In this document: in pieces, positions 1 through 13,717 of the stretch | How the letters are laid out: every line of letters starts with the position of its first letter | Position numbering within the stretch: the first letter of the stretch is position 1 | IMG/VR virus record: IMGVR_UViG_3300011116_000905 | Coordinates: 1-22,147 of that record | DNA from: a virus | Reading direction: 5' to 3' (one strand) | DNA length: 22,147 nt | Position numbers and translations under genes: made by a program | Notes under the pieces: model-generated | Seen by the model: only the letters and a program-made list of their open reading frames with translations | Told to the model about the DNA's origin: nothing | Database searches by the model: none

Positions 1-181
1 GTCTCCAATAGATCGCACCGTTGCTGAGTAAACAATTAAACAACGTTGCACGCCCGCTAATACTCCCCAAAGAAAATACCACGCAGTCTTCAGTTTCGCC
101 TTGATGTTCTCGTAAGTCATATAAATATTCCCTCCTTATTTGACAATAGATTGGTGGTATATTTGCATTTAAATATGCCAT
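1..181 (-). CDS. Conserved phage protein of unknown function, C-terminus beyond window
   Basis: The first 60 codons of a minus-strand gene are visible, and it runs off the left edge with no stop. The ATG lies 2 nt after the polA TGA, so the two genes are probably translationally coupled. The protein starts MAYLNANIPPIYCQIRREYL. It continues with EDCVVFSLGS at about 31-40 and SNGAIYWR at 53-60. From memory this resembles a small protein often seen beside polA in uncultured marine phages. I know of no function for it. GC is about 45% in bases 1-120, higher than in most of the window. A competing frame starts at 120 behind an AAGGAGG sequence. I prefer this frame because of its position after polA and the recalled family pattern. 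The gene's presence is fairly sure; its role is unknown. Confidence 0.7.
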   Translation of the reverse strand, partial: MAYLNANIPPIYCQIRREYLYDLREHQGETEDCVVFSLGSISGRATLFNCLLSNGAIYWR

Positions 182-183
182 AA

Positions 184-2043
184 TCAACCATATATATCTC
201 CCCAAGTTTCACCGCTTTCGTAATCAACTTTGTTAGGGATTGCCAAAGTTACGGCGTTTTCCATTATTTGAACAATCTTTTTTGCATGATTGTCATCTAC
301 AACAGAAATATCTAATTCATCATGGATTTGTATATGTGGGATTATTCCCTCTTTATATAAATCCAACATTGCTTTCTTAGTCATATCAGCAGCGGATCCT
401 TGTATTAATTTATTTAAAGCTTTGTAAGTCATTGCTCTTCTAATTCTACCACGTCCATAAGTTCTCTCTGCTTCTTCAAATGACATTGCAGTATGCATAC
501 CAAATGTTGCTGGTTCCCATTTATTAAATCTACAACGACGACCAAGTAATGTTCCAATTGATCCTGATGTCTGTGCAAATTGAGATGTTTTGTTCATTAA
601 TTCTTTTACAAATGGAACGTTATTATGATATTGATTGAATAATACTTCTGCTTCTTCTTTTGTATTTAATCCAAGTTCAGCTTGTAATTTTGCTTTTCCC
701 ATTCCATAAAATAATCCAAGGTTAATTGTTTTAGCTTGATCTCTTGATATTCCTGCCATGATTGCAACTGTCTTATGAAAATCTACAGAATCATTTTTAA
801 ATTCTTCTACAATTTTTGTAACTGATTCATCAAAACAAATTGGTTCAGTTGTTGCTGCATAATGCACAACTAATCTTGGTTCTTGTTGGGAATAGTCAAA
901 ACAACCCCACTTATGATCTACTTCTGGTAAGAATAATGATCTTATCATAGGTCCTAGTTCCTTGTTTCTCGCTGGAATCTGCTGGAGATTAGGATTAGCA
1001 TAAGAAAATCTACCTGTTACAGTTCCACCTTGATCAGATCTAATTGGATTGATGTCAGCATGTATTCTTCCCTTATGAGTAAATTTTAAAATTGTATCTA
1101 TAAAAGTTGTATGAGCTTTATTAATTTCTCTTGCTTTAGCAATCATTTGAACTATAGGGTGTTTATGTTCTTGTAAAAAATTCTTTGTAAAGGATGGTGC
1201 AGATGATTTCTCGGTTCTTTCATAATGTAGGCCAAGCTTATCAAAAACTGTTGCAATGCTTCTTGCTGCCCAAATCTGTGGTTCTATCCCTGTTTCTTGT
1301 TTTACTTTTAATAACAATTCATGCTCTTGTGCTGTTAGCTGTTGTTTTAATTTGTGTGCTTGGTCTGTATCAATTCTTACTCCTTTAAATTTCATATCAA
1401 TGAGACATGGAAATAATTGTGTCTCAAGATCAAATACATTTTGTAAATTTTGTTTTTGTATTTCTCGTGATAAAACTTTAAACAATTCTAATGTTAATTT
1501 TGCATCTTTTTCTGCATAATTACCTACATACATTGCAGGAAGTTTATACATTTCAGATTTAGGATCTATTCCCCAAGATTGTGCTGCCTCTGTTAAAGCT
1601 TTTTCATCTTTAACTTCACCTAAAAATTCAAATGAAATACTATTTAATGTATATGCTAATCTATTTTCATCAATTAATGATGCCATCACCATTGTATCTA
1701 CAATGTGTCCATTGATTATAACTCCTGCCGCTCGAAGCCAGCACACGTCATACATTGCATTGTGAAATATTTTTACATTATCATTTGCACAAACTTGTTT
1801 AATCCAATTTAAAACTTTATCTTTATCTAAATTGCCACCACCTTCATGAGCAATCGGATAGTATGCGGACCATCCTTCAACAGCTATAGCAATACCAACA
1901 ATATTACCATTACCTATAACTGCACCAGATCCTCTTGATTTAAGATCAGGATCTTTAGTTTCTAAATCAATTGCAATATATTTATATCCTTTTAAATCAG
2001 GATAATTTTCTGGACAAATCCATTCTTTCTGAGCTTCAAACAT
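184..2043 (-). CDS. polA: DNA polymerase I, family A, with 3'-5' exonuclease domain
   Basis: This 619-aa protein copies phage DNA. Residues about 20-195 form a DnaQ-like proofreading domain: D26xE28, the NAMYD segment near 95-99, and D180 in YAEKDAK. Residues about 200-619 form the polymerase: TGRFS near 343-347, motif A DYSQQEPR at 383-390, motif B with R434, K438, L442 and Y446-G447, and motif C HDE at 574-576. No 5'-3' exonuclease domain is present, as is usual for phage PolA. Leu442 (codon 718-720, CTT) sits where E. coli Pol I has Phe762. The ATG has no good Shine-Dalgarno sequence. It follows a tiny hydrophobic ORF by 3 nt, which suggests coupled translation. All catalytic motifs look intact. 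Confidence 0.97.
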   Translation of the reverse strand: MFEAQKEWICPENYPDLKGYKYIAIDLETKDPDLKSRGSGAVIGNGNIVGIAIAVEGWSAYYPIAHEGGGNLDKDKVLNWIKQVCANDNVKIFHNAMYDVCWLRAAGVIINGHIVDTMVMASLIDENRLAYTLNSISFEFLGEVKDEKALTEAAQSWGIDPKSEMYKLPAMYVGNYAEKDAKLTLELFKVLSREIQKQNLQNVFDLETQLFPCLIDMKFKGVRIDTDQAHKLKQQLTAQEHELLLKVKQETGIEPQIWAARSIATVFDKLGLHYERTEKSSAPSFTKNFLQEHKHPIVQMIAKAREINKAHTTFIDTILKFTHKGRIHADINPIRSDQGGTVTGRFSYANPNLQQIPARNKELGPMIRSLFLPEVDHKWGCFDYSQQEPRLVVHYAATTEPICFDESVTKIVEEFKNDSVDFHKTVAIMAGISRDQAKTINLGLFYGMGKAKLQAELGLNTKEEAEVLFNQYHNNVPFVKELMNKTSQFAQTSGSIGTLLGRRCRFNKWEPATFGMHTAMSFEEAERTYGRGRIRRAMTYKALNKLIQGSAADMTKKAMLDLYKEGIIPHIQIHDELDISVVDDNHAKKIVQIMENAVTLAIPNKVDYESGETWGDIYG

Positions 2044-2046
2044 TGT

Positions 2047-2136
2047 TTATAATATCATAATTAAATAACAAAGTACACATAGACAAGTCAACAAACCCAT
2101 ATGAAAAATTGCTTTTTTGTGTCCTCTAAACATCAT
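2047..2136 (-). CDS. Tiny predicted single-span membrane peptide between DUF3310 gene and polA
   Basis: This 29-codon frame starts at tandem ATGs inside the last codons of the DUF3310 gene (11-nt overlap) and stops 3 nt before the polA ATG. A purine-rich stretch (AGAAAGAGA) precedes the start. The peptide opens with basic MMFRGHKK and continues as a hydrophobic stretch rich in Leu, Ile and Cys through residue 29, enough for one membrane span. polA lacks its own clear Shine-Dalgarno sequence, so this frame could carry ribosomes to polA. It may therefore be a real membrane peptide, a leader for coupling, or chance. Function is unknown, and so short a frame is only moderately supported. Confidence 0.45.
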   Translation of the reverse strand: MMFRGHKKAIFHMGLLTCLCVLCYLIMIL

Positions 2137-2338
2137 AGTCTCTTTCTATAATCATCTGTATATAATGTGTTGCTTTTAACAAATCTTGTTTTTTACCTTT
2201 GTCTTGATGTCTGCAAATATATTTAATTGCATTACCTTCTGCAAATAATATTTTATTCTCATTAATAAATTTAGAAGGCTGTATTTTATATTTTTTATAA
2301 TGTTTTCCTCCTACTTGTCTAAAAAACGCTTTGTTCAT
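2126..2338 (-). CDS. DUF3310 family protein
   Basis: This 70-aa protein matches the DUF3310 pattern: GKHY at 11-14, IQP at 19-21, GNAIKYICRH at 35-44, then a K/D-rich stretch with DLLKA at 52-56 and HY at 58-59. The domain is found in many phages, including as part of the T7 gp1.7 nucleotide kinase, so a role in nucleotide metabolism is possible. No catalytic activity can be read from this short copy. Its ATG overlaps the stop of the upstream helicase gene in an ATGA, and its Shine-Dalgarno AGGAGAT lies inside the helicase's last codons. It therefore belongs to the replication operon. The family assignment is firm, the function is not. Confidence 0.85.
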   Translation of the reverse strand: MNKAFFRQVGGKHYKKYKIQPSKFINENKILFAEGNAIKYICRHQDKGKKQDLLKATHYIQMIIERDYDV

Positions 2339-3867
2339 AGTATCGGATCTCCTGGTATATAGTTATAATAATCATCTATATCTGGTTGCATGATATAAAG
2401 ATTTTCTTTTGCACGCGTCACACCCACAAAAAACAATCTGTGTTCTGGATCAGGATTTCTTAATGCTGCGTCATGTATAATCTTTTCCATTCCTGTATAT
2501 AAGACTACATTTTCGCATTCTTCACCTTTAACACCATGTATTGTGGATACTTTAATTCTTGCAGGTTTAAATAAATCATCACCATTATTTAATAATGATT
2601 TAATATATAATTTTGTATCTTCTTTAAAATTTAATTGTTCCCAGCTCCCCGTCACTCGCAACCCGTGATTAAGCATAAGATCATCAATATCTACATAATC
2701 TACAGCATCTAATGACTTACCACTAGAAAATCCATAATCAACATGTTGCATATTATAATTTAAAACTTTATAAACTGATTTTGCTTCTTCAGCGCCAACA
2801 GTTGCTCCTTCATTTAATCTATTCCATACTTGATAAGCTTCTAATAATTCTTTAGATAAAACTGTATTTGTTTTACTATCAAATCTTAAATTTAAAGTAG
2901 TTAAATGAGCTTTAATTGGATTTAACATTTGATTAGTTCTAGCTATAATCATCCATTCTCCTTTACTAAAATCTAAATCATCTAATCTTTGATCTTCAAA
3001 AATTTGTCCTTCAGCATCTCTTGGAAGCCAACTCTTAATCATTCTATTATCTACATGTTGTAATATATCTAATGCTTTTCTATGAATAACACGTGGACAT
3101 CTTCTTGATTCAACTCTTGCATCTACTTCACCTTTTAAATTTATAAATATATTTGGATCAGCACCTTGAAACGTATAAATCGTTTGATCGTCATCCCCTG
3201 CAACGTATGATCGCTCACATCGAGATTCAATGTAATTGAACATTTCCCATTGCAGAGGATTCAGATCCTGTGCTTCATCCAAAAAGACAACGCTGAGTGG
3301 AGGGCATTTGTCTTTCTCAATGAACTGTTTAATCATATCGGAATACTCAATCATCCCAGTTTGTTTCTTATATGATTTTAAATCGGCATTAATTTGTTCT
3401 GTTAACCAAATATCTATAATTTGATGTTTATCTAATTCTACTGCCGCATCCATAATAGATATTTTTTTACATCTTGAATATTCAATAACTTTCATATGAT
3501 CATTTTTATATGTAATTGCTTCTGTGTAAGGATCAAAATAAGAATCAAAAGATAAGTCTTTGCATATTTGTGAAAAATTTTTAAAAGCATTCCATTTTTC
3601 ATCTTTAAGTAATTGTGTATTTGTATCTATATTTAATTGTCTTGTTCCTAAAGAATGCATAGTGCATATGTATGGAAATTCTTTTATCTGTGGAAATGTA
3701 GGTAATATTCTTCTTCTTGCTTCATTAGTTGCTGCATTACTAAATGTTAAATAGGCAATTTTATCTCCAGGAATTTTATTTATTTCAATTTCTTTTTTTA
3801 AATAATTATTTATTAAATGGTATGTTTTACCTGTTCCTGGAGGTCCTGGAATGATTGTTCTTTTCAT
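2335..3867 (-). CDS. Superfamily 1 DNA helicase, UvrD/PcrA-like
   Basis: This 510-aa protein is an ATP-driven DNA helicase, probably acting at the phage replication fork or in recombination. SF1 motifs appear in order: Walker A GPPGTGKT at 8-15, TFSNAA near 41-46 (motif Ia), Walker B LDEAQDLNP at 196-204, motif III GDDDQTIYTFQGA at 224-236, motif IV IIAR near 307-310, motif V VSTIHGVKGEE at 440-450, and motif VI FFVGVTRAKENLYIM at 479-493. It is shorter than cellular UvrD (about 720 aa), which suggests reduced 1B/2B subdomains. The gene overlaps the primase stop by 4 nt (ATGA), and AAGGAG lies about 12 nt upstream of the ATG. Bases about 3181-3300, coding for motifs II-III, are GC-richer and use CTG/CTC leucines, unlike the TTA-rich flanks. 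Confidence 0.93.
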   Translation of the reverse strand: MKRTIIPGPPGTGKTYHLINNYLKKEIEINKIPGDKIAYLTFSNAATNEARRRILPTFPQIKEFPYICTMHSLGTRQLNIDTNTQLLKDEKWNAFKNFSQICKDLSFDSYFDPYTEAITYKNDHMKVIEYSRCKKISIMDAAVELDKHQIIDIWLTEQINADLKSYKKQTGMIEYSDMIKQFIEKDKCPPLSVVFLDEAQDLNPLQWEMFNYIESRCERSYVAGDDDQTIYTFQGADPNIFINLKGEVDARVESRRCPRVIHRKALDILQHVDNRMIKSWLPRDAEGQIFEDQRLDDLDFSKGEWMIIARTNQMLNPIKAHLTTLNLRFDSKTNTVLSKELLEAYQVWNRLNEGATVGAEEAKSVYKVLNYNMQHVDYGFSSGKSLDAVDYVDIDDLMLNHGLRVTGSWEQLNFKEDTKLYIKSLLNNGDDLFKPARIKVSTIHGVKGEECENVVLYTGMEKIIHDAALRNPDPEHRLFFVGVTRAKENLYIMQPDIDDYYNYIPGDPIL

Positions 3868-5384
3868 TTAAATGCAGGCTCCTTCATTGTAGTCTCTGTA
3901 ATAGTTGGTTTATCAACATTTACTGTTTCGACTTTCCATATTCGCATTGATTTTTTATCTAATTTTAAAACTTCTTCTTTTGCCTTAAAAATATCTTCCA
4001 ACATTTTTTGTGTTTTTGCTTTTGGTAAATCCCACGACTTACTTCTTTTTAAAAAACTATTAAAACTTTGGTATTTAAAATAACTGTGGCCATTTTCTGT
4101 ATATGGAATACCTCTTTTAACATCTTCCATAACTTTACCTGTTGCTCTATTTAAAAAATCTCCAAGTAATTCTTTTAATTGATAATCAAGTCTTGCTGCT
4201 TGTGGAACTTCTAATATTTTAAATGTATCTTTATTGGACATAATTTTATGTAATAATTTTTTCCAAATCATTTTTCCTATAGGCATTAACACTTGATTTA
4301 ATTGATCCATTACTTCCATAGAAAATTTATCAAATTCATGAAGTGTTGCTCTGTCTACTTCAACTGGCTTACCATCAAGATAAACAATATAAATTGTTGG
4401 GTGTGATGGATATTTTTCTATTCTTTCTATTTCTGGTGTTGGAACATTTTCTCCAACTCCAAATTTTCTTTTGACACAAATTTTTGATTCACAAAAACTT
4501 CTAATAGGTTCTTGTTTACATTTATAACGATAATCCTTATTTAATAATGATTTAATAACCCCTTCTATTTCAGAATCTGTTAATGGTTCAACCATGTATT
4601 TACCATTATAAGTACTTAACTTTGTTTTCCATGTATCTGGAAATCTTTTTCTTAAGTAAACACCAACATTAAACATAGTATCATTTCTTTTACCTTTAGG
4701 AACTTTATCAGATAATAGTGTAACTAAACAAGGAGGAGCTTCTAATAAATCTTCATCTCCTGTAGTTATAGGTTCTTTCCATTGTATTAAATCTTTTTCA
4801 GATAAAACTTTTTTATCATACAATTTAAAAAATTCTTCTAAAGTTAACAACTCTGCATCATCTCCTAGTGCACGTCTTACAGATTGATCCCCACCGTGAT
4901 ATGGAACATTCAACCAACTACCAACTTGGTTTTTATCTGCAAGTATATAATCTTGTTTTGGAAATAATTCTTTACCAGCATGACCTAACATTGCGGCCAT
5001 TGTTTTTAATTTTTCTCTAACTAAAGACGCTGGAACAAATTCTTTTACAAATAAAAATATATGTGCACCACCTGATTTTGATTTAAAAACTATTAAAGGT
5101 AAATTTTTATTTTTTATTTTTGTAATTAATTCTTTATGATCTAAATCATAAACATCGACGTCTAAACATCCCCATTTACATTTACTATCTTGTCTAATGG
5201 GTACAATTCCTAATGCTGGAAATTCTCCATTCAAATGTTTTTGCCATAACGTATCTGTTACAGACTTATGTACCGTTATTGATTCTGCTTCATTTTTTCC
5301 ATCATCTCTAATTTCACCAGTCATCTTTGTCTGACCATAGGATGATTCTAGGCCAGCAAATACTTGCTTAAATCTTTCTAACAT
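3864..5384 (-). CDS. AEP-type DNA primase, similar to TOTE-system primases
   Basis: This 506-aa protein probably makes replication primers. Counting from this ATG, the archaeo-eukaryotic primase motifs are DVD at 75-77 (metal binding), SKSGGAH at 102-108 (nucleotide binding) and VGSWLNVPYHGGD at about 154-166. FPKQD near 141-145 and the flanking pattern resemble primases of TOTE conflict systems, a group also found in phages. A helical middle with KGKRNDTMFNVG near 230-241 is PriCT-like. It is followed by cysteines at about 289, 298 and 303, a possible zinc site. The frame stays open to a TTG at 5396, but no Shine-Dalgarno precedes that TTG, whereas GAGAGTGG precedes the ATG at 5384. The gene overlaps the helicase start by 4 nt, which fits primase-helicase partnership. 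No DnaG or T7 gp4-type primase is seen in the window. Confidence 0.85.
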   Translation of the reverse strand: MLERFKQVFAGLESSYGQTKMTGEIRDDGKNEAESITVHKSVTDTLWQKHLNGEFPALGIVPIRQDSKCKWGCLDVDVYDLDHKELITKIKNKNLPLIVFKSKSGGAHIFLFVKEFVPASLVREKLKTMAAMLGHAGKELFPKQDYILADKNQVGSWLNVPYHGGDQSVRRALGDDAELLTLEEFFKLYDKKVLSEKDLIQWKEPITTGDEDLLEAPPCLVTLLSDKVPKGKRNDTMFNVGVYLRKRFPDTWKTKLSTYNGKYMVEPLTDSEIEGVIKSLLNKDYRYKCKQEPIRSFCESKICVKRKFGVGENVPTPEIERIEKYPSHPTIYIVYLDGKPVEVDRATLHEFDKFSMEVMDQLNQVLMPIGKMIWKKLLHKIMSNKDTFKILEVPQAARLDYQLKELLGDFLNRATGKVMEDVKRGIPYTENGHSYFKYQSFNSFLKRSKSWDLPKAKTQKMLEDIFKAKEEVLKLDKKSMRIWKVETVNVDKPTITETTMKEPAFK

Positions 5385-5402
5385 ATCCACTCTCAATGTA
5401 TT

Positions 5403-5433: not shown

Positions 5434-6165
5434 TTACTTATTATTTGCTAAACTTTGATAGAACTGTTTTGCTCTTTCATAGATAGCTGCATCACTTACA
5501 GGACCAACTTTTGTAATGTTGTATCCATACCATTGATTTCCTTTACCGGAATTTAAAACGGTATTTAATTTGTATACGTGACTAAATGATGGTGGTGTGT
5601 ATGGACCATTTTTTCCGTCCATAGTTATTGACATCATCATTGCATTCCACTTTCTGCTAATTTTACCTTGAGATGAACTCATAGATATAAGAGCAGTTTC
5701 AGTAGAACCTTTATCTACTATTAAAACAAAATGTTGACCAACCGTAAGAATGTAATTACCATTTGGCAATCTATCCTTACCCATTTGATCTTTTGTAGTT
5801 TTAGTTAGTATATCAGAAGTATCTGGATAGATTTGTTCAGGTCTTCCCGAACCTGTTCCAAAATCTGACCATTCTTGAAACTCCAATTTATAATGACATG
5901 GAATAACTTCTATTCCTTTTGAACCATCATAAACTTTCTTTGTTACTGTATTTAGTAACATTCCTGGTTCAGCACCTTCTACATAAGCTTGATTTCGCTT
6001 TTGTCCTTCTGCTGATCCATTCTGTAATAGTTTTAAGATAGGTAAAGCAACACTAGTGTTCTTTACATTCTCAAAACCAGCATGTGCATCGCTTTCAAAC
6101 AATATTGATGAAGGCAATGGTGCATCTTTTTTTATTGCTACTTGTTTCTCGTTTCTCGTTTCCAT
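5434..6165 (-). CDS. Replication-region protein, possible single-strand DNA-binding protein
   Basis: This 243-aa protein is of a type common in phage replication clusters, but I cannot name its family with certainty. It has a charged N-terminus, then LPILKLLQ near 42-49, AYVEGAEPGMLLNTVT near 60-75, and GIEVIPCHYKLEFQEW near 84-99. It ends with aromatic and basic residues rather than the acidic tail of T7 gp2.5. It sits just upstream of the primase and after a coiled-coil protein, so a role in binding replication DNA is plausible by context only. Its Shine-Dalgarno AGGAGA is formed by the last two Arg codons of the upstream gene, 10 nt before the ATG. The gene call is sure, the function tentative. 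Confidence 0.55.
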   Translation of the reverse strand: METRNEKQVAIKKDAPLPSSILFESDAHAGFENVKNTSVALPILKLLQNGSAEGQKRNQAYVEGAEPGMLLNTVTKKVYDGSKGIEVIPCHYKLEFQEWSDFGTGSGRPEQIYPDTSDILTKTTKDQMGKDRLPNGNYILTVGQHFVLIVDKGSTETALISMSSSQGKISRKWNAMMMSITMDGKNGPYTPPSFSHVYKLNTVLNSGKGNQWYGYNITKVGPVSDAAIYERAKQFYQSLANNK

Positions 6166-6171
6166 TTTCTA

Positions 6172-6720
6172 TTATCTCCTAGTTATTTTTGTCTGGTTAC
6201 CCGCAAACGTTTTAAATAGATCAGAGGGCATATCATGTCCAGCTTCGATACGCTCTCTGACCACTGCTTTGAGTGTCTGAGAATGAACACCAACTTTCTG
6301 GACTGGTTCAAATCCCTGACCTCGTGCAAGGACAGCATATTGTGCCGCCTTGTTATCTTCGCCACGACCAAAGGTAACAGTGATATCGTTTTTAATGATA
6401 TCGCCTAGACCGTTGTTACGAAGCCATGTAAAAGCTTGTTCCTGAACTTCAGGAATAATAGTTGCACTGTAAAAAGGTTTTACTTCTACAGATTCACCAT
6501 CTTTTAGCTTTAATTTTGTAATGTGCATTTCCTGCATCATGGCAGGAATTTCTACTTGAGAAAGTATTCTAGCTTGTTCTTTTAATTTGTTAATACTTTC
6601 TTCCGCATTAGCAATTTCATCTTCTAAATCTTTTAACTTTAAAACTTTATCAGATAAAGTTTTAGCCGCATCAATTTGAGTTACTGATTCTACTCGGTCT
6701 TGTTCAAAATTTATTGTCAT
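6172..6720 (-). CDS. Coiled-coil protein of the replication operon, function unknown
   Basis: This 182-aa protein has a heptad-rich, charged N-terminal helix at about 20-57. A compact C-terminal part follows with LKLKDGESVEV at 70-80, FTWLRNNGLGDIIK at 97-110, VTFGRG at 115-120 and VGVHSQTLKAVVRER at 143-157. It is the first gene after a perfect-consensus sigma70 promoter and lies 6 nt upstream of the putative DNA-binding protein gene. That arrangement suggests an abundant early replication factor that may form oligomers. I do not recognise a named family with a proven role. GC rises from about 29% in the 5' part (6541-6720) to about 47% in 6241-6420, with codons such as CTC, GTG, CGT and ATC, a hint of mosaic origin. 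Confidence 0.75.
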   Translation of the reverse strand: MTINFEQDRVESVTQIDAAKTLSDKVLKLKDLEDEIANAEESINKLKEQARILSQVEIPAMMQEMHITKLKLKDGESVEVKPFYSATIIPEVQEQAFTWLRNNGLGDIIKNDITVTFGRGEDNKAAQYAVLARGQGFEPVQKVGVHSQTLKAVVRERIEAGHDMPSDLFKTFAGNQTKITRR

Positions 6721-6746
6721 GTTTTTATCTTTCTATTTTTCTGTAT

Positions 6747-6775
6747 ATTATAATCCCTTAAATTAATATTGTCAA
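6747..6775 (-). promoter_or_regulatory. Perfect-consensus sigma70 promoter for the replication operon
   Basis: On the minus strand TTGACA (6770-6775) is separated by exactly 17 nt from TATAAT (6747-6752), a full match to the bacterial housekeeping consensus. Expected transcription start is near 6740, about 20 nt before the ATG at 6720. The -35 box overlaps the TGA stop (6772-6774) of the 118-aa gene. It should drive the coiled-coil protein, DNA-binding protein, primase, helicase and polymerase genes using host RNA polymerase. Confidence 0.85.
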
Positions 6776-7128
6776 GTGTCCAAATTTGTTTTTTGATACA
6801 AGTCAATTTCAATTGGATAATATCTCCTTTCTTGTTTATCCCATTTTAATAATTTATACTTGCCATTAGTAATATCAGATACAACAGAACATGCAACACC
6901 AATTATTGCTGGATCACCTGTAAGTAGTAAATAATCTTCTGAAGTGTAATCTTTTAGCAACTGTCGTAACTTAAATACAACAGGTCCTGCACTTAATATA
7001 ATTTGTGCATTTTCTGGTAGCAGAACTTTTAGTGAACCAAATTGAGAAGCACCAATAATATTTATTTTTGGTCTTCCTTCCCTTGTGCCTGGCACATCTT
7101 GAATAACGTAAACTTTATTTTTTTCCAT
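6772..7128 (-). CDS. Conserved phage protein of unknown function
   Basis: This 118-aa protein has no catalytic motif that I can name. Visible marks are VYVIQDVPGTREGRPKINII near 7-26, SEDYLLLTGDPAIIGVACS near 63-81 and GKYKLLKWDKQERRYYPIE near 89-107. From memory, proteins with the YLLLTGDP and LLKWD patterns recur in phages of marine alphaproteobacteria, always without a known role. It is the first gene of the leftward operon, transcribed from a promoter that overlaps the start of the divergent SNF2 gene. Its stop codon is embedded in the -35 box of the next promoter. A regulatory or takeover role would fit the position but is speculation. Confidence 0.7.
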   Translation of the reverse strand: MEKNKVYVIQDVPGTREGRPKINIIGASQFGSLKVLLPENAQIILSAGPVVFKLRQLLKDYTSEDYLLLTGDPAIIGVACSVVSDITNGKYKLLKWDKQERRYYPIEIDLYQKTNLDT

Positions 7129-7181: not shown

Positions 7182-7210
7182 ATTATATATGCATTATAAG
7201 TTTAAGACAA
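7182..7210 (-). promoter_or_regulatory. Divergent sigma70-like promoter for the leftward replication genes
   Basis: On the minus strand TTGTCT (7205-7210) and a perfect TATAAT (7182-7187) are 17 nt apart. Transcription would start near 7175 and lead into the ATG at 7128. The -35 lies inside the first codons of the SNF2 gene and the -10 directly before its ATG. Leftward initiation would therefore interfere with rightward initiation and with SNF2 expression. Confidence 0.6.
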
Positions 7211-8622
7211 AGCCATTTGCACATCAATTAAAGGCATTAGAAATGTCTTGGGATAAAAAAGTATTTGCTTATTTTATGGAAATGGGGACCGGTAAGTCTA
7301 AAGTATTAATAGATAATATGTCAATACTTTATGATAAAGGCCTTATAAATGGCGCCTTAATTATAGCTCCTAAAGGTGTTTATAAAAATTGGTTTGACTC
7401 TGAAATACCAACTCATATGGCAGACCATATAGAGAAAAAAATGGTACTGTGGGAATCTACAGCAAGTAAATCTAAAGAAAAAGAATTAGAAATATTATTT
7501 AAATCTGATCATGACCTTCATATTTTAATTATGAATGTTGAAGCATTATCTACTAAAAAAGGAAAACAATTTGCAGAAAAGTTTTTAAATTGTCATAAAA
7601 CTTTAATGGCAGTAGATGAATCAACTACTATTAAAAATCCAGGAGCTGCAAGAACAAAAAATATAATTACTTTAGGCAAACATGTTTCATATAAAAGAAT
7701 ATTAACAGGATCACCTGTTACTAAATCTCCCTTAGATTTGTATACACAATGTTGGTTTTTAGATCCTTGGTTATTAGATCAACAGTCTTATTATAGTTTT
7801 AGAACTCGATACGCATTAATGCGTAAAATAATGGTTAGTGGAAGACAAATAGAAATTGTAGTTGGTTACAGAAATCTTGGTGAATTGTCAGAAAAAATTA
7901 AACCTTTTTCACATAGAGTTTTAAAAGATGACTGTTTAGATCTTCCACCTAAAACTTATATGAAAAGAACTATTCAGTTAACCGAAGAACAACAGAAAGT
8001 TTATAAACAAATGAAAGAAATTGCACTTGCAACATTAAATGGAAAATTAACAACAACACATAATGTTATAACTCAATTAATGAGATTACATCAAATTACA
8101 TGTGGTCATTTTAAATCTGATGATGGTCAAACACAAAAAATTGCAAATAATAGATTAAATGAATTAATGGATGTTTTATCTGAGATGGAAGGTAAAGCAG
8201 TTATATGGGCTCATTATAGATATGATATAGAAGTTATTGTTGAAGCTATTAAAAAAGAATACGGAGAAAATTCTGTAGTTACTTATTATGGAGACACAAC
8301 TACAGATGATAGACAAAAAGCAATTAAATTAATTCAAGATAAAGATAGCCCTGTAAGATTTATTGTAGGCACACCACAAACGGGTGGATATGGAATTACA
8401 TTAACAGGGGCATCAACTATGATTTATTATTCTAATGGATATGATTTAGAAAAACGTCAACAATCTGAAGCAAGAATTGATAGAATTGGTCAAGAAAAAC
8501 CTATGACTTATATTGATATTATAGCAGAAAAAACCGTTGATGAAAAAATAGTAAAAGCTTTACGAACTAAAGTTAATATTGCAACCCAAGTTATGGGAGA
8601 AGATTTAAAGGAGTGGATATAA
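7189..8622 (+). CDS. SNF2-like superfamily 2 DNA helicase/translocase
   Basis: This 477-aa protein is a SWI2/SNF2-type ATPase that probably moves along double-stranded phage or host DNA. Motifs in order: an N-terminal HQLKAL Q-like segment near 12-17, Walker A MEMGTGKS at 30-37, IIAPKGVYKNW at 58-68 (motif Ia), Walker B AVDEST at 141-146 (DEST rather than DEAH), motif III LTGSP at 172-176, TGGYGITLTGAS near 398-409 (motif V) and QSEARIDRIGQ at 425-435 (motif VI). Length is typical of compact phage SNF2 proteins with no accessory domains. It is the only gene on the plus strand, with its own promoter. Its stop codon sits in the loop of a hairpin that probably ends transcription. The role is uncertain: replication, recombination or displacing DNA-bound proteins. 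Confidence 0.92.
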   Translation: MHYKFKTKPFAHQLKALEMSWDKKVFAYFMEMGTGKSKVLIDNMSILYDKGLINGALIIAPKGVYKNWFDSEIPTHMADHIEKKMVLWESTASKSKEKELEILFKSDHDLHILIMNVEALSTKKGKQFAEKFLNCHKTLMAVDESTTIKNPGAARTKNIITLGKHVSYKRILTGSPVTKSPLDLYTQCWFLDPWLLDQQSYYSFRTRYALMRKIMVSGRQIEIVVGYRNLGELSEKIKPFSHRVLKDDCLDLPPKTYMKRTIQLTEEQQKVYKQMKEIALATLNGKLTTTHNVITQLMRLHQITCGHFKSDDGQTQKIANNRLNELMDVLSEMEGKAVIWAHYRYDIEVIVEAIKKEYGENSVVTYYGDTTTDDRQKAIKLIQDKDSPVRFIVGTPQTGGYGITLTGASTMIYYSNGYDLEKRQQSEARIDRIGQEKPMTYIDIIAEKTVDEKIVKALRTKVNIATQVMGEDLKEWI

Positions 8623-8652: not shown

Positions 8653-9096
8653 TTATTTAATATTTATTTTAATGCCTTCAATTTCTTTTGGTTCATTAAA
8701 ACCAAATTTAATTTTAAGTAACCCATCTTTCATTTCAGCTTCATCAACTATTACATCTTTAGCTAATTCAAACTGTTTGAAAAATTTTCTAAATGCAAGA
8801 CCTTGTTTAACATAGTCTACATTTTTATTATCTACTTTTCCTTCTACTGTTAAGATACCGTCTTTAACTTCTACAAGTACATTTTCTTTATTGTATCCGG
8901 CTAAACCAATTTCTAAACCGTATTTACCTTTTGAGTATTTTACTACGTTATAGAAAGGAAATGATTGTACTTTTGACCACGTGTCAAAAATATTTTCAAA
9001 AGCATCATCAAAAAATTTTGTTGATCCATTGAATACTTGTTTTTGTAATTTGTTTACATCGAGTAAACCATTATTGTCTAATAGATTATTAAACAT
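8653..9096 (-). CDS. hsp20: Small heat shock protein, Hsp20/alpha-crystallin family
   Basis: This 147-aa ATP-independent chaperone binds unfolding proteins and probably assembles into oligomers in the infected cell's cytoplasm. The alpha-crystallin domain spans about 47-132, with PFYNVVKY near 47-54, LEIGLAGYNKENVLVEV near 61-77, GILTVEGK at 80-87 and FRKFFKQFELAKDV near 102-114. The C-terminal I-x-I anchor is INI at 144-146. A strong Shine-Dalgarno (AAAGGAGA) precedes the ATG. Small heat shock proteins are known accessory genes of cyanophages and other marine phages, where folding of virion proteins or host stress relief is assumed. It lies downstream of speD and its transcript converges with that of the SNF2 gene. 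Confidence 0.93.
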   Translation of the reverse strand: MFNNLLDNNGLLDVNKLQKQVFNGSTKFFDDAFENIFDTWSKVQSFPFYNVVKYSKGKYGLEIGLAGYNKENVLVEVKDGILTVEGKVDNKNVDYVKQGLAFRKFFKQFELAKDVIVDEAEMKDGLLKIKFGFNEPKEIEGIKINIK

Positions 9097-9154: not shown

Positions 9155-9182
9155 TATATAATGATTTATTTTAAAATTTCAA
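9155..9182 (-). promoter_or_regulatory. Candidate sigma70-like promoter for hsp20
   Basis: On the minus strand TTGAAA (9177-9182) and TATATA (9155-9160) are 16 nt apart. They lie within and just after the end of the speD gene, about 60 nt before the hsp20 ATG. The matches are five and four of six. The region is AT-rich, so chance is a real alternative. Confidence 0.35.
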
Positions 9183-9540
9183 GGTTATGTTCTCTATCTA
9201 AAAATTTATATTCAATTTTTGTAGTATTAAAATCTTTCTTTATTTTTTCACATATTGTTTTTGGATCAAATTCACCGCAAGAATAAACATCAAATTGTAG
9301 CAAGGCGGGGTCAGGTTCATCCCATACATGCATTACTATATGAGATGTTTCTATAATAGCAGCCCCAGTAATACCACGATTGCCAATCATATTAGAATAT
9401 TTAACGTAAGGTCCCATCATAACTTTCATACCTATATCTTTAATAAATTGTTCAAACCATTGCCTAAGAAAACTTTCTTCCATAGGAGGATTTTTTGCCT
9501 CGGCACGAATAATTAAATGTTTATGTACAAGTACTTCCAT
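9166..9540 (-). CDS. speD: S-adenosylmethionine decarboxylase proenzyme family (SpeD-like)
   Basis: This 124-aa protein matches the short class 1b SpeD proenzymes, which cleave themselves to form a pyruvoyl cofactor and decarboxylate S-adenosylmethionine for spermidine synthesis. The signature IIETSHIVMHVWDE is at about 62-75, with predicted cleavage Ser66, His67 and His71. QFDVYSCG at 82-89 supplies Cys88. The spacing agrees with Ser63, His68 and Cys83 of the Thermotoga enzyme. The residue before the cleavage serine is Thr65 instead of the usual Glu. Some SpeD relatives have become arginine or ornithine decarboxylases, so the substrate is not certain. A TTAGGCG sequence precedes the ATG. No speE or other polyamine gene is nearby, so the product would feed host pathways. 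SpeD genes are known in marine phages. Confidence 0.88.
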   Translation of the reverse strand: MEVLVHKHLIIRAEAKNPPMEESFLRQWFEQFIKDIGMKVMMGPYVKYSNMIGNRGITGAAIIETSHIVMHVWDEPDPALLQFDVYSCGEFDPKTICEKIKKDFNTTKIEYKFLDREHNLEILK

Positions 9541-9578: not shown

Positions 9579-9800
9579 TTATTTTAATAAATTGAAAGAT
9601 AATGTTAATAATAAAGTTATGGTTGATCCAAGTCCACCTATAATCCACCATGTAAGTTTATCAAATTTTTTTTCAAATTTAGAATGCATTTCAGAAGATT
9701 CTTGTCTAAGTTCTTGTAAATCCCTTTTTACCCCAGTTATATGGCCATAAAGAGCTACAATATGTTCACCTGTTGTTTCTGGTTTTTTACCATTACCCAT
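9579..9800 (-). CDS. Small coiled-coil protein with C-terminal membrane segment, holin candidate
   Basis: This 73-aa protein has a polar N-terminus with KPETTGEHIVALYGHITGVK near 6-25 and a charged amphipathic helix at about 26-50. A single hydrophobic span WWIIGGLGSTITLLLTL follows at about 51-67, with a short tail. A soluble coiled coil plus a C-terminal anchor resembles XhlA-type hemolysin/holin proteins, and its place at the end of the virion operon fits lysis. No endolysin gene is visible in the window to confirm this. Its ATG shares one base with the stop of the giant gene (TAATG), so translation is probably coupled. It might instead be a virion membrane anchor. Confidence 0.6.
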   Translation of the reverse strand: MGNGKKPETTGEHIVALYGHITGVKRDLQELRQESSEMHSKFEKKFDKLTWWIIGGLGSTITLLLTLSFNLLK

Positions 9801-12800
9801 TATGCTAATCCTCGTTGTCTTAATCTCATTTGTTTTTCGCTTTGACTTAATAAAGCATTTTCCGTTGGCGTCAATCCATTTTGTAATCCTGCAAATTGTT
9901 GAACAGGAGGAGTTAAAATAGAAGCATTAGGCATTGGCGTATTTAATGGTTGAGTATTTTCTGAAAGAGAAGGCATATAACTTTGTATTCTTGGTGTAAA
10001 TTGTTTATCTAATTTTTGTAAACTAAAATCTCTTTCCATTGCTCTTAATGTCCCTTGAGCTTCTATAAATGGATTAGATTGCCCCGTTGTTCTAGATATT
10101 TCTTGAAACCTGTCAATAATACCTTGTGATGGAAAGAATGGATCAAATTTATCACGATATAAATTTCCAACAGTTTCTTCTGATAATCCCCTTGTTTTAA
10201 ATAAATTAGCAAGATTACCTCTTGCAACACCTAATGTTTCTGCATTTTTTAAATGTGTAGACATTTTTTGTTGCACATCAAATAATGCTTTATTTGCAAC
10301 ATAATATCTTTCAATTAAATCTTTAGGAGTTTTTATTTCACCTGTTAATAATCCTTCTGGTCCACCAGTAAATTCTCTTCTTGAATTTCTTTCACCTTCT
10401 TGAAAATCAGAAATGTAAAATCCCATTGTTTTTAATGGATCTATTTTTTCTGCTCTCATTCCAAATATACCAGCAAACTCATAAGGTACTTCATAAACTT
10501 CACCTCCTTTTGCAGGAGCCTCTGTTATTGCTTGGTATGTTCTTGTAAAAGGTTTATAACTTGGAGCTAATGCATCTGCTAAATGCATAATAATTCTTTG
10601 CATTTTTTCATTAGTTGGAGTTTCATCTGTGTATAATATTTTACCTTCTGGCGTACGACCATTTCTTGACCAAATATCCATAACTGCTTCTGTCCAAATA
10701 GAAGGTTCAACAAATGGACTAGATATACTTCCACTTGCTTCTGCAATACCTTTTATAAATCCAGTCATTAAAGGTTTTTCTTTATCAATACCTTCTTGTA
10801 TATTTCTTAATAATGTAGCAAATGGTCTTTGTAATGTATCATAAGAATTCATTTTACTATAATCTATAAAATATAAATTCCCTGTTTCAGAATTTCTCAT
10901 AAATATTTTCATTGAATCTTTTGCCCATGGAGCTACGAAATCTGATGCAGCTTTTGCTTCTTCATCAGATACTCCAAATATTGCTTTACTTCCTTCTGTA
11001 ACTCCATAAGGAATAGCTGCAAGAGCTGTTGTTGATCCAATTAATCTTTTCATAGCAATACCTTTCATAATATTTGTACTTGTTATTGGATTAATTGAAC
11101 CTGTGATTGGATCTCTTAAATCTTTTATTATTTGTTCTGCAATTCCAACTCCAGTTCTAAATATTTCTGATGGAAATGACATGAAATTACCAAAAGGAAG
11201 GCCTCTAGATAATCTTATATATTGACCTACTCTTGAATAATTTTGCACTGTATTTTTAACAATTTCAGCTGCTTCTTTTTCTAATTCCTCTGTTGTTTTT
11301 TTAACTCCTGCTTTTAAATAAGCCGCTCCTCTTCTTGCAACTTCAACTTCAAAATTAAATATTTTAATAACGTCATCTGATGTGGTGTATACTTTTTCTG
11401 CAAATTGCAATCCTTTTTTAGCTAATTGCCCAGTTTTTCCTAATGATTTTACTAAAGGATCTAAAAGACTATCTGTACCTAAATTTCCATTTGCTGAAAG
11501 TCTTGTATCTCTTAATAAATTATCTAAATCTCCTTTTACAGAACTACTTTCAGCTATTCCTAATCTTATGTATTTTCTATATTGTTCCATAGACAAAGGT
11601 TGTCTAAGTCCAAGTTGTGCAGTCATACCAGCTTTTTTTGCAGCTTGTGCAACTATTTCAGGACTTTCAAATATTGTTCCATTAGATAATGCAAAAATTC
11701 CATTTGCTAAAAAGTTTTTTATTTGAGTAGGTACAGATAAAATTGTTTTATCGTATTGAGATACTGCTTTTGGTAATAACATTAAATTTCTATACATCCA
11801 TGAAAATGTTTTTCCTAAAGGACCATCCATTTCTCCTCTCATAAAATCTTGTAATATAGAAGTATTTTTAAATCCTTCTGCAATTTCTTTTGTTGTCCAT
11901 TTACCTTGTAATGCATTTACAACAGGACTTCCTTTAAAATCATTTCTTACATAATCATCTAATTTAACAAGTTTACTATTTGGACCAAATGCTTTCATTG
12001 CATCATATTCGCTATCATGAAAAAATCCTTTTTTCCCAAGTGGTGTATCTTTAGTTATATTTGCTTTTATCAATTGGTCATTAACTAACATTTCTTCATA
12101 CATTTCATTTCTTCTTGCAACAGTAGATAACTTTGAAACTCCTTCATATATAGAACGTCTAACATCATCTACTCCCCCTAATAATTCTCTAAATGCTTTA
12201 CTACCTCTACCAATAACTTGAAATTCTGTTTCTCCTCCTGCCATTTTTTGTTCCAATGTTCTTGCAAAAGTTTTTTTAATGTAATCTCCTTTATCTGATC
12301 CAATTGTTAAATTTCCATATTGAAAAGATGGCATTTTATCTATTTTAGGAAATGATTTTTTTGCTTGATCTAAAATACTATCTACCATTGATTGAGCTTC
12401 TATATCAGTTATTTCTTTACCATGTTTAGCACCATATCTAATAAATATTTGTTTAACTTTATCTACAACATCTTTTGCTGGAGTAAATTTAGTAAACATA
12501 CTAGCAAATTTATTATCAAAAATTGCATATGTATCTCCAACCATTGTTTTTAATCTATCTCCCATTAAATTTTTTAATTGTAATGTTAATTCAGTTGGTA
12601 ATTCTCCAGATCCTCTAGATGCAATATTTATTAAATCTCCATATTGATTTCTTATTTTTTCTATCGCTGTTAAAATAATATCAACGCCTTCAGGACTAGA
12701 TCCACGTTTTCTCATAGTATCAACAATATTATCTATTATTTCTTTATCTATTTTTTCATCAATTTTTCCTGAATATAAAGCATTATCTAAAGTTTTTAAA

Positions 12801-13717
12801 AAAGCTTGTTTTTCTGTATCACTAGCTGCATTAAAAAATTTATTTGTTTCCGGAAACATTTTATTTACTTCAATATCTATTCTATTAACCTGTTCCATTG
12901 CTAAATGTTGATCTGCTCTAATTGCAGCATTTTCAGATTCTCTTGCAAGAAATTGTTCTCTTGGTCTTGCACCTTGTGGAGTAAAAAAACTTCCAACTTT
13001 AAAAAAGAATCTATCTAATTCAGAACTACTGTAAGCTAATGCATCACCTTGTTTTAATAATTTTTTTGCTCCTTCTCCAACTCCAAATACAACGGGTGCA
13101 AGTAATAAAGATTCAGTTCCAAATTTAAATCTATTCATTAATTTTGTTACAGCATCTTCCCTGCCACCTGTTTCTTCATCAATATCTCCAAGTTGAGTAG
13201 GGCCAACTCCAAATGCTGATCCAATAGTCCCTAGCTTCTCGATGTCCGCTACAAATGCCTCGCCTACAGCTCCTCCTGCAGCAATCGCTCCATATCTTTG
13301 TGTTGTAGATAATTTATTTAATTTATCTGCTTCAGCTGTTGCTTTAATTAAATTAGGACTAGTTAAACTAGCATAAACTCCAGCTCTTCTTGCTTTTAAT
13401 GCTGTTTCCGCAAGTTTAGTTGCAACTTTAGCACCTGCTGCTGATGGGACTCCAATTTGAACTAAACCTTCTAATAATCTCCCTGACAATCTTTCATTAG
13501 CTACTTCTTCAAATGGATTAATACCATCAAAAAATTGTTCTACAGAAGACGCACTATTAGTATCAAAACCAATATCTAATAATTCTGCCCCTAATGAAAA
13601 TACTCCTTTTGGAATTTTAATAATTCCAGATGCAATACCGGCAACACCAGATTTTATTAAACCTACTTTTTGATTACTTTCTCCAATCGTTTCAAATGGA
13701 TCTATATATTCAGCCAT
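9800..13717 (-). CDS. Giant 1305-aa probable internal virion/DNA ejection protein
   Basis: This is the largest protein in the window, similar in length to the 1318-aa T7 gp16 core protein. I see no lytic transglycosylase or peptidase motif. Gly/Ala-rich amphipathic or hydrophobic stretches occur near 18-48, 142-172 and 200-220, with another in the C-terminal half (LIGSTTALAAIPYG). Long charged helices lie between. The C-terminus is Gln/Pro-rich and ends with LTPTENALLSQSEKQM plus a basic tail, which I recall from uncultured marine phage virion proteins. Alternating helices and membrane-active stretches suit an ejected protein that helps DNA cross the cell envelope. A GGAG overlapping the previous stop precedes the ATG. 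Bases 13201-13290 are about 54% GC, sharply above the surroundings. Function is inferred from size, composition and place. Confidence 0.6.
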   Translation of the reverse strand: MAEYIDPFETIGESNQKVGLIKSGVAGIASGIIKIPKGVFSLGAELLDIGFDTNSASSVEQFFDGINPFEEVANERLSGRLLEGLVQIGVPSAAGAKVATKLAETALKARRAGVYASLTSPNLIKATAEADKLNKLSTTQRYGAIAAGGAVGEAFVADIEKLGTIGSAFGVGPTQLGDIDEETGGREDAVTKLMNRFKFGTESLLLAPVVFGVGEGAKKLLKQGDALAYSSSELDRFFFKVGSFFTPQGARPREQFLARESENAAIRADQHLAMEQVNRIDIEVNKMFPETNKFFNAASDTEKQAFLKTLDNALYSGKIDEKIDKEIIDNIVDTMRKRGSSPEGVDIILTAIEKIRNQYGDLINIASRGSGELPTELTLQLKNLMGDRLKTMVGDTYAIFDNKFASMFTKFTPAKDVVDKVKQIFIRYGAKHGKEITDIEAQSMVDSILDQAKKSFPKIDKMPSFQYGNLTIGSDKGDYIKKTFARTLEQKMAGGETEFQVIGRGSKAFRELLGGVDDVRRSIYEGVSKLSTVARRNEMYEEMLVNDQLIKANITKDTPLGKKGFFHDSEYDAMKAFGPNSKLVKLDDYVRNDFKGSPVVNALQGKWTTKEIAEGFKNTSILQDFMRGEMDGPLGKTFSWMYRNLMLLPKAVSQYDKTILSVPTQIKNFLANGIFALSNGTIFESPEIVAQAAKKAGMTAQLGLRQPLSMEQYRKYIRLGIAESSSVKGDLDNLLRDTRLSANGNLGTDSLLDPLVKSLGKTGQLAKKGLQFAEKVYTTSDDVIKIFNFEVEVARRGAAYLKAGVKKTTEELEKEAAEIVKNTVQNYSRVGQYIRLSRGLPFGNFMSFPSEIFRTGVGIAEQIIKDLRDPITGSINPITSTNIMKGIAMKRLIGSTTALAAIPYGVTEGSKAIFGVSDEEAKAASDFVAPWAKDSMKIFMRNSETGNLYFIDYSKMNSYDTLQRPFATLLRNIQEGIDKEKPLMTGFIKGIAEASGSISSPFVEPSIWTEAVMDIWSRNGRTPEGKILYTDETPTNEKMQRIIMHLADALAPSYKPFTRTYQAITEAPAKGGEVYEVPYEFAGIFGMRAEKIDPLKTMGFYISDFQEGERNSRREFTGGPEGLLTGEIKTPKDLIERYYVANKALFDVQQKMSTHLKNAETLGVARGNLANLFKTRGLSEETVGNLYRDKFDPFFPSQGIIDRFQEISRTTGQSNPFIEAQGTLRAMERDFSLQKLDKQFTPRIQSYMPSLSENTQPLNTPMPNASILTPPVQQFAGLQNGLTPTENALLSQSEKQMRLRQRGLA

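Follow-up and report, generated by a model that had tools for sequence, protein, structure and literature searches.

The virus record IMGVR_UViG_3300011116_000905, a linear stretch of 22,147 bases that was analysed as a whole and is called the window below, encodes a family A DNA polymerase (PolA) with leucine at the position of Escherichia coli Phe762. Schmidt et al. 2014, as cited in PMC6302109, PMC9069017 and PMC13228545, proposed that Leu762 goes with a temperate or pseudo-temperate lifestyle, so the literature link named in the preliminary description of this DNA does exist, and metagenome papers have taken the residue as a sign of temperate viruses. The question raised by this locus is whether the leucine tells of the lifestyle of the phage or of the replication machinery to which the polymerase belongs. 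The reading that we favor, and consider quite probable, is that the enzyme is the replicative PolA of an HTVC023P-type relative and a normal member of Leu762 Group II, in which leucine is under selection and marks a replisome lineage rather than temperate life.

The polymerase and its residue at position 762

The polymerase gene and the motifs discussed here are located as follows.
184-2043, minus strand: PolA, family A DNA polymerase (open reading frame of 619 aa; PF00476, PF01612, PHROG 17, fold match to DpoZ, Bst and Klenow)
316-324, minus strand: catalytic motif C, H574-D575-E576, corresponding to E. coli 881-883 (no variation across the 20 proteins of alignment A1)
703-744, minus strand: motif B or O helix, R434 DQA K438 TIN L442 GLF Y446 G447 (from the alignment; model helix 434-446)
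718-720, minus strand: codon CTT of Leu442, equivalent to E. coli Phe762 and T7 Tyr526 (phmmer, MAFFT)
874-897, minus strand: motif A, D383-Y-S-Q-Q-E388-P389-R390 (from the alignment; E388 is the steric-gate Glu710)

A Pfam scan of the protein returned a 3'-5' exonuclease domain (residues ~17-195; PF01612, 4.4e-14) and a polymerase domain (residues 227-616; PF00476, 1.6e-62) with no further Pfam domain. The score against DNA_pol_A (PF00476) was 212.1 bits at a curated cut-off of 34.3, which places the enzyme in family A, and it falls in PHROG 17, DNA polymerase. Its AlphaFold model (mean pLDDT 78.9) has the Pol I fold, matching Klenow 1d8y with Z 27.6 and an rmsd of 3.7 over 545 aligned residues, reported as ranges and not as residue pairs; a predicted helix spanning residues 434-446 includes Leu442 and lies where the O helix is expected. 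Residues 434-447 read RDQAKTINLGLFYG. Phmmer aligned this region to Klenow without a gap (AKTINLGLFYG against AKAINFGLIYG), and MAFFT with full-length E. coli K-12 PolA (locus L110) placed Leu442 in column 762. The earlier reading of CTT as leucine at the Phe762 position is thus upheld by two sequence alignments, as distinct from a residue-level structural alignment, and neither put another residue there.

The MAFFT alignment demonstrated that PolA retains the equivalents of E. coli D705, E710, R754, K758, Y766, N845, Q849, H881, D882 and E883. Within motif A, Gln387 and Pro389 stand in place of E. coli Ile709 and Leu711 (DYSQQEPR against DYSQIELR). Residues D26, E28, D99 and D180 of the exonuclease domain were invariant in the 20 aligned proteins and, on our reading of the motifs, would correspond to E. 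coli D355, E357, D424 and D501, which serve in proofreading. By analogy with other enzymes, Leu442 would lie in the O helix at the point where phenylalanine (in cells) or tyrosine (in T7) touches the sugar of the incoming dNTP.

The preliminary description had credited studies of virioplankton PolA with linking Leu762 to slower, more accurate synthesis. The measurements of rate and fidelity behind this statement come instead from a Phe-to-Leu mutant of Taq polymerase (Suzuki et al. 2000, as cited in PMC6302109 and PMC13228545). In T7, according to PMC13228545, the Y526L enzyme lost 97% of its activity, the cycle was not completed and fidelity could not be measured. This 2026 T7 preprint states that compensating changes must be present in native Leu enzymes, and it names finding them as a key direction, while PMC9069017 cautions that mutants may not stand for native Leu762 enzymes. 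We infer that the window enzyme may be slower in synthesis.

The phage and its replication genes

Comparison of the 22 window genes with known phages found 19 collinear with Pelagibacter phage HTVC027P (its 43.8-57.5 kb and 0-8.2 kb) and 16 with matches in 023Pt_psg01, the respective PolA identities being 59.1% and 59.9%. The window had no megablast match among 50,697 phage records. Its gene order, shared with HTVC027P, makes the phage a divergent pelagiphage of the HTVC023P type, in agreement with the earlier guess of a SAR11-type phage; a SAR11 host, taken from the relatives, and a lytic life would be expected for it. The genes surrounding PolA are the following.
2-205, minus strand: start of the gene after PolA, truncated at the edge of the window (homologous to HTVC027P gp11, which is annotated as PurM)
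2126-2338, minus strand: DUF3310 protein, adjoining PolA (PF11753)
2335-3867, minus strand: UvrD-type superfamily I helicase (PF00580, 1.1e-27)
3864-5396, minus strand: archaeo-eukaryotic-type (AEP) primase (PF22548, 3.4e-13; PHROG 21866, primase)
7189-8622, plus strand: SNF2-type superfamily II helicase (PF00176, 1.9e-21; PF00271)

The truncated gene is 68.9% identical to gp11 over 61 aa, and the SNF2 gene is 64% identical to its HTVC027P counterpart. In the loci of close relatives, the best 80 of at least 600 viral relatives of PolA, a tblastn match to the DUF3310 protein was found in 79 and a UvrD match in 76; where at least 7 kb of sequence was present, UvrD matched in all 32 loci and SNF2 in 15 of the 32. 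Leu762 Group II, as described by Nasko et al. 2018 (PMC6302109), has UvrD-like and SNF2-like helicase neighbors, and in both data sets of that paper Leu762 outnumbers every other type (934 of 2,095 and 624 of 1,215 PolA). The window has Leu762 together with both helicases, and by this residue and these neighbors its PolA is classed as an ordinary Leu762 Group II member. No ribonucleotide reductase was seen among the 20 of its 22 genes scanned with Pfam, the window being a fragment. In the favored reading this PolA would act beside the UvrD-type helicase, the SNF2-type helicase and the AEP-type primase, with its proofreading residues intact.

Several other genes of the window deserve mention. 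Three genes in a row at 5434-7128 (minus strand) are related to gp34, gp33 and gp32 of phage Pam3, and their order is kept beside the HTVC027P replication genes. Genes for S-adenosylmethionine decarboxylase (SpeD) and HSP20, at 9166-9540 and 8653-9096 (both minus strand), had no match in HTVC027P or 023Pt_psg01 in the gene-by-gene comparison. A 1305-aa protein (9800-13717, minus strand) is 38% identical to an HTVC027P protein at 51.9-55.9 kb, had no Pfam match and is perhaps a large virion protein.

Conservation of Leu762

Residues and codons were counted in the same best 80 of at least 600 viral relatives. Leucine occupied position 762 in all 80, with R754 aligned in 79 and a gap there in the remaining one, and was encoded by five codons (CTT 41, TTA 23, CTA 8, TTG 6, CTG 2). 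Since leucine is kept while its codon varies, selection appears to act on the amino acid itself; since phenylalanine lies a single base from CTT, TTA and TTG, its replacement seems to be selected against. Leucine would then be the settled state of the clade.

Before further counts, 10 of 379 rows that were short or lacked key positions were removed. The phylogeny comprises 149 representatives (75% identity) and was built by a 'quick' method with SH-aLRT support only, after removal of the motif A and motif B columns. The window PolA falls in starred all-Leu762 sets of five and nine rows, the larger of which holds HTVC027P and 023Pt_psg01; it thus sits in a supported all-Leu set and not in a Phe or Tyr clade, the placement that the preliminary description had named as evidence against it. 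Residue 762 requires only nine changes on this tree, the minimum possible being two and shuffled labels giving about 40.

A natural change away from leucine was found in a search of viral_contigs for QEPR combined with Phe or Tyr762 (scan A), which gave six matches, five of them with a PolA open reading frame. Two were true QEPR enzymes with Phe762 (L235 and L238, both TTT); the other three have no QEPR at that spacing in the reading frame and were judged to be chance hits ahead of motif B. L235 (IMGVR_UViG_3300017710_000169, match at 3170-3345, minus strand) has Phe762 in an intact open reading frame and groups with HTVC023P in a starred set of five, nested among Leu762 enzymes. A Leu-to-Phe change with motif A unchanged therefore seems to happen within the Leu762 clade, although this is a single metagenomic contig that could carry an error, and the intact reading frame indicates that leucine is not locked in.

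The best surviving alternative to selection for leucine is that Leu762 is a lineage marker without present adaptive meaning, fixed in ancestors, compensated and since traveling with the clade. The small number of changes relative to shuffled labels and the phenylalanine of L235, with its QEPR retained, are what such a history would leave, whereas the uniform leucine across five codons speaks against it; we hold this alternative to be possible but somewhat improbable.

As a separate observation, the tblastn match in L174 (IMGVR_UViG_3300042731_007656) covers 2937 bases for a PolA query of 670 residues, a length that suggests that the polymerase gene is interrupted by an insertion, for instance an intein.

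Residue 711 and possible compensation in motif A

Besides the QEPR enzymes, a second set with Leu762 was recovered. Scan B, for I-E-x-R with Leu762, gave at least 120 matches, three of those listed being without a PolA open reading frame, which leaves at least 117 Leu762 enzymes. These share Leu762 with the window PolA but have I-E-[A/P/V/Q]-R rather than Q-E-P-R, and they stand elsewhere on the 149-representative tree than the window set. Among the matches listed, an SNF2 match was found in 53 of the 73 loci with at least 7 kb, and a match to the window UvrD in none of the 120 loci and none of those 73. The IExR-type enzymes are probably Leu762 Group I, a name taken from their neighbors and not from comparison with any published sequence. 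Scan C, run on bacterial genome contigs with a pattern that fixed one Gln codon and Pro711 and so misses others, gave 31 matches, 19 with a PolA open reading frame; all 19 had Leu762 and QEPR. All 19 were in metagenome-assembled or single-cell genome records and none in a cultured isolate, which suits phage contigs better than prophages. PF00589 was matched somewhere in the bins of two of these contigs, L361 and L362, which were left out of the counts. Over the three scans, 16 of 157 pattern loci were without a PolA open reading frame. A query with the PolA of phage Dp-1 found no relatives in viral_contigs.

Residue 711, which follows the steric-gate Glu710, was counted in the sets whose search had left it free (scans A and C omitted), many of the rows being close relatives. 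Leu762 enzymes had Pro in 165, Ala in 76, Val in 7, Gln in 1 and Phe, Tyr or Leu in 1 each, so that Pro, Ala, Val or Gln accounts for 249 of 252. The three exceptions (L100, L157 and L158) all have Phe766 as well. Phe762 enzymes had Tyr in 28, Leu in 12, Met in 1 and Val in 1, and Tyr762 enzymes had Leu in 49 and Ala in 2; Leu or Tyr was thus present in 89 of 93 Phe/Tyr762 enzymes, against Pro in the QEPR group and Ala, Pro, Val or Gln in the IExR group. A column scan found that 711 separates both Leu groups from the rest most strongly after 762 itself. The scan is suggestive only: this separation is partly built in, because the QEPR group is defined by a motif containing Pro711, and some QEPR rows in it came from scan C. 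Only two independent Leu/non-Leu pairs fall on supported branches, so a sign test cannot reach 0.05 and the coupling of 762 with 711 is given without significance. HTVC022P (Tyr762, Val711) and the two Tyr762 enzymes with Ala711 speak against a tight rule. A stricter rule, Q709-P711 for Leu762, had fitted the first 226 enzymes, with QEPR in 134 of 137 Leu762 enzymes and 0 of 89 others. It was dropped when scan B gave at least 117 Leu762 enzymes without Gln709, and the weaker lead at 711 was kept.

In the favored reading the enzyme would be tuned to leucine by other substitutions, the likeliest being those that adjoin the steric gate in motif A (Gln at 709, Pro at 711), for which a compensating role is conceivable. 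That the compensatory changes of native Leu762 enzymes include residue 711, a small residue or proline reshaping the pocket for the dNTP sugar, is a tentative proposal that we regard as rather unlikely. Literature searches found, among the matches listed, no paper joining Leu762, compensatory changes, motif A and DNA polymerase I; a QQEPR-type motif A was not found in print, the one match being unrelated, and the term 'motif A' was absent from the main text of PMC6302109, PMC9069017 and PMC13228545. If the proposal for residue 711 were true, L235 and the window enzyme would form a natural test pair.

Leu762 and lifestyle

The preliminary description had proposed that this phage tests the link to temperate life, no integrase being seen. 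The window had no PF00589 match, and a scan of 20 of its 22 genes showed no Resolvase; since this fragment of 22 kb reaches 38% of the length of HTVC027P, a missing integrase says nothing, and the proposed test falls away. Complete relatives are more telling. Residue 762 was read in 28 named phage records, and the whole records were searched for tyrosine (PF00589) and serine (PF00239) recombinases. No recombinase was found in any of the 10 Leu762 phages; the two carriers were one of the 15 Phe762 phages (Texage, PF00239) and one of the three Tyr762 phages (HTVC119P, PF00589). The T7 record had neither domain.

A survey of 44 viral contigs of at least 35 kb, among the matches listed and leaving out L316 (36 kb, without a PolA open reading frame) and L319-L358, detected PF00589 in 1 of 28 Leu762 contigs (L261), 0 of 9 Phe762 contigs and 7 of 7 Tyr762 contigs, where absence may mean that the gene lies off the contig; PF00239 was found in none of the 44. 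The sampling was uneven, and the Tyr762 contigs are related and were recruited with one integrase-bearing phage, which makes them an unfair sample of Tyr762. L261 counts against the reading of Leu762 as a mark of replisome lineage only.

The contrast is sharpest in two phages of the same host. PMC12753301 describes HTVC022P, with a latent period of ~15 h, as temperate, and HTVC027P, with one of ~18 h, as obligately lytic. HTVC022P has an integrase and Tyr762, while the whole record of HTVC027P, a Leu762 phage, had neither PF00589 nor PF00239. The two also differ in genome size (42.0 kb against 57.6 kb) and in whether they encode an RNA polymerase of their own. The equation of leucine with temperate life fails for this SAR11 pair: lifestyle runs opposite to the link, and speed is weakly in line with it. 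Virulent Leu762 phages of Bradyrhizobium elkanii have already been published, with the conflict noted and lysogeny not excluded there (PMC12632393).

The proposal that Leu762 marks temperate or pseudo-temperate phages, a slower and more accurate enzyme suiting lysogeny, can point to the published association, to L261 and to the longer latent period of HTVC027P. Set against the recombinase counts, the same-host pair and the Bradyrhizobium phages, it appears very unlikely to explain the leucine studied here, and the link named in the preliminary description did not hold in the complete relatives. These closest complete relatives suggest that a temperate lifestyle cannot be read reliably from Leu762. 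The residue would rather be a mark of replisome lineage, the nearest cultured relatives being lytic. HTVC023P-type phages are reported to occur widely and to rank with the most abundant pelagiphages (PMC9599517, PMC12753301), and if those with Leu762 are lytic, as reported for HTVC027P, residue-based counts of 'temperate' virioplankton would be too high. The same-host pair makes this point directly testable. The protein is ordinary for its kind, and the interest of the locus lies mainly in the same-host contrast, in L235 and in the lead at 711.

Comparison with known systems

Structural comparison gave DpoZ of vibriophage phiVC8 (7pbk) as the top, though tied, match to the window PolA model, at 25% identity. 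The two share the family A fold and Leu762, which is L455 in DpoZ (PMC8599892), an enzyme of solved structure. DpoZ is linked to 2-aminoadenine and has Phe at 766, as do L100, L157 and L158, whereas the window PolA has Tyr766. That a modified nucleotide lies behind Leu762, as in the 2-aminoadenine phages with their Leu-bearing DpoZ, is suggested by this match and by the Leu762 phage AbaS-Bhz9, which has a PF00709 gene near PolA, but the idea is hardly credible here given Tyr766 and the presence of PF00709 in only 1 of 15 records (Bhz9), with none in the window (a fragment), HTVC027P, 023Pt_psg01, HTVC023P, DSL-LC04, Ab18, MW2, JM2 or Dp-1; the DpoZ/PurZ reading was rejected on this absence from the window and its close relatives.

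The enzymes L100, L157 and L158 are DpoZ-related, with Leu762, Phe766 and an H-E-x-R motif A. L100, from Acinetobacter phage vB_AbaS-Bhz9 (PV067731.1), is a close relative of phiVC8 DpoZ (7.6e-145), so that 7pbk shows a natural leucine at this position. The Bhz9 PF00709 gene (adenylosuccinate-synthetase family) comes shortly after PolA, behind a single-strand-binding protein gene, and is perhaps PurZ; the genome may contain 2-aminoadenine.

Klenow, T7 gp5 and the window PolA have the fold and the catalytic residues in common. E. coli Pol I has Phe762 with IELR in motif A and T7 gp5 has Tyr526 with LELR, while the window enzyme combines leucine with QEPR. E. coli Pol I has a 5'-3' exonuclease, and T7 polymerase works with thioredoxin and a ring helicase. 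Leu762 Group II, as presented in PMC6302109, resembles the window in its residue and its UvrD and SNF2 neighbors, and no difference from it was found. The polymerases of HTVC027P and 023Pt_psg01 differ from the window PolA by ~40% sequence divergence, the window being a fragment, but they share with it Leu762 and the QEPR motif A, and their loci have the same gene order of DUF3310, UvrD, primase, Pam3-like genes and SNF2.
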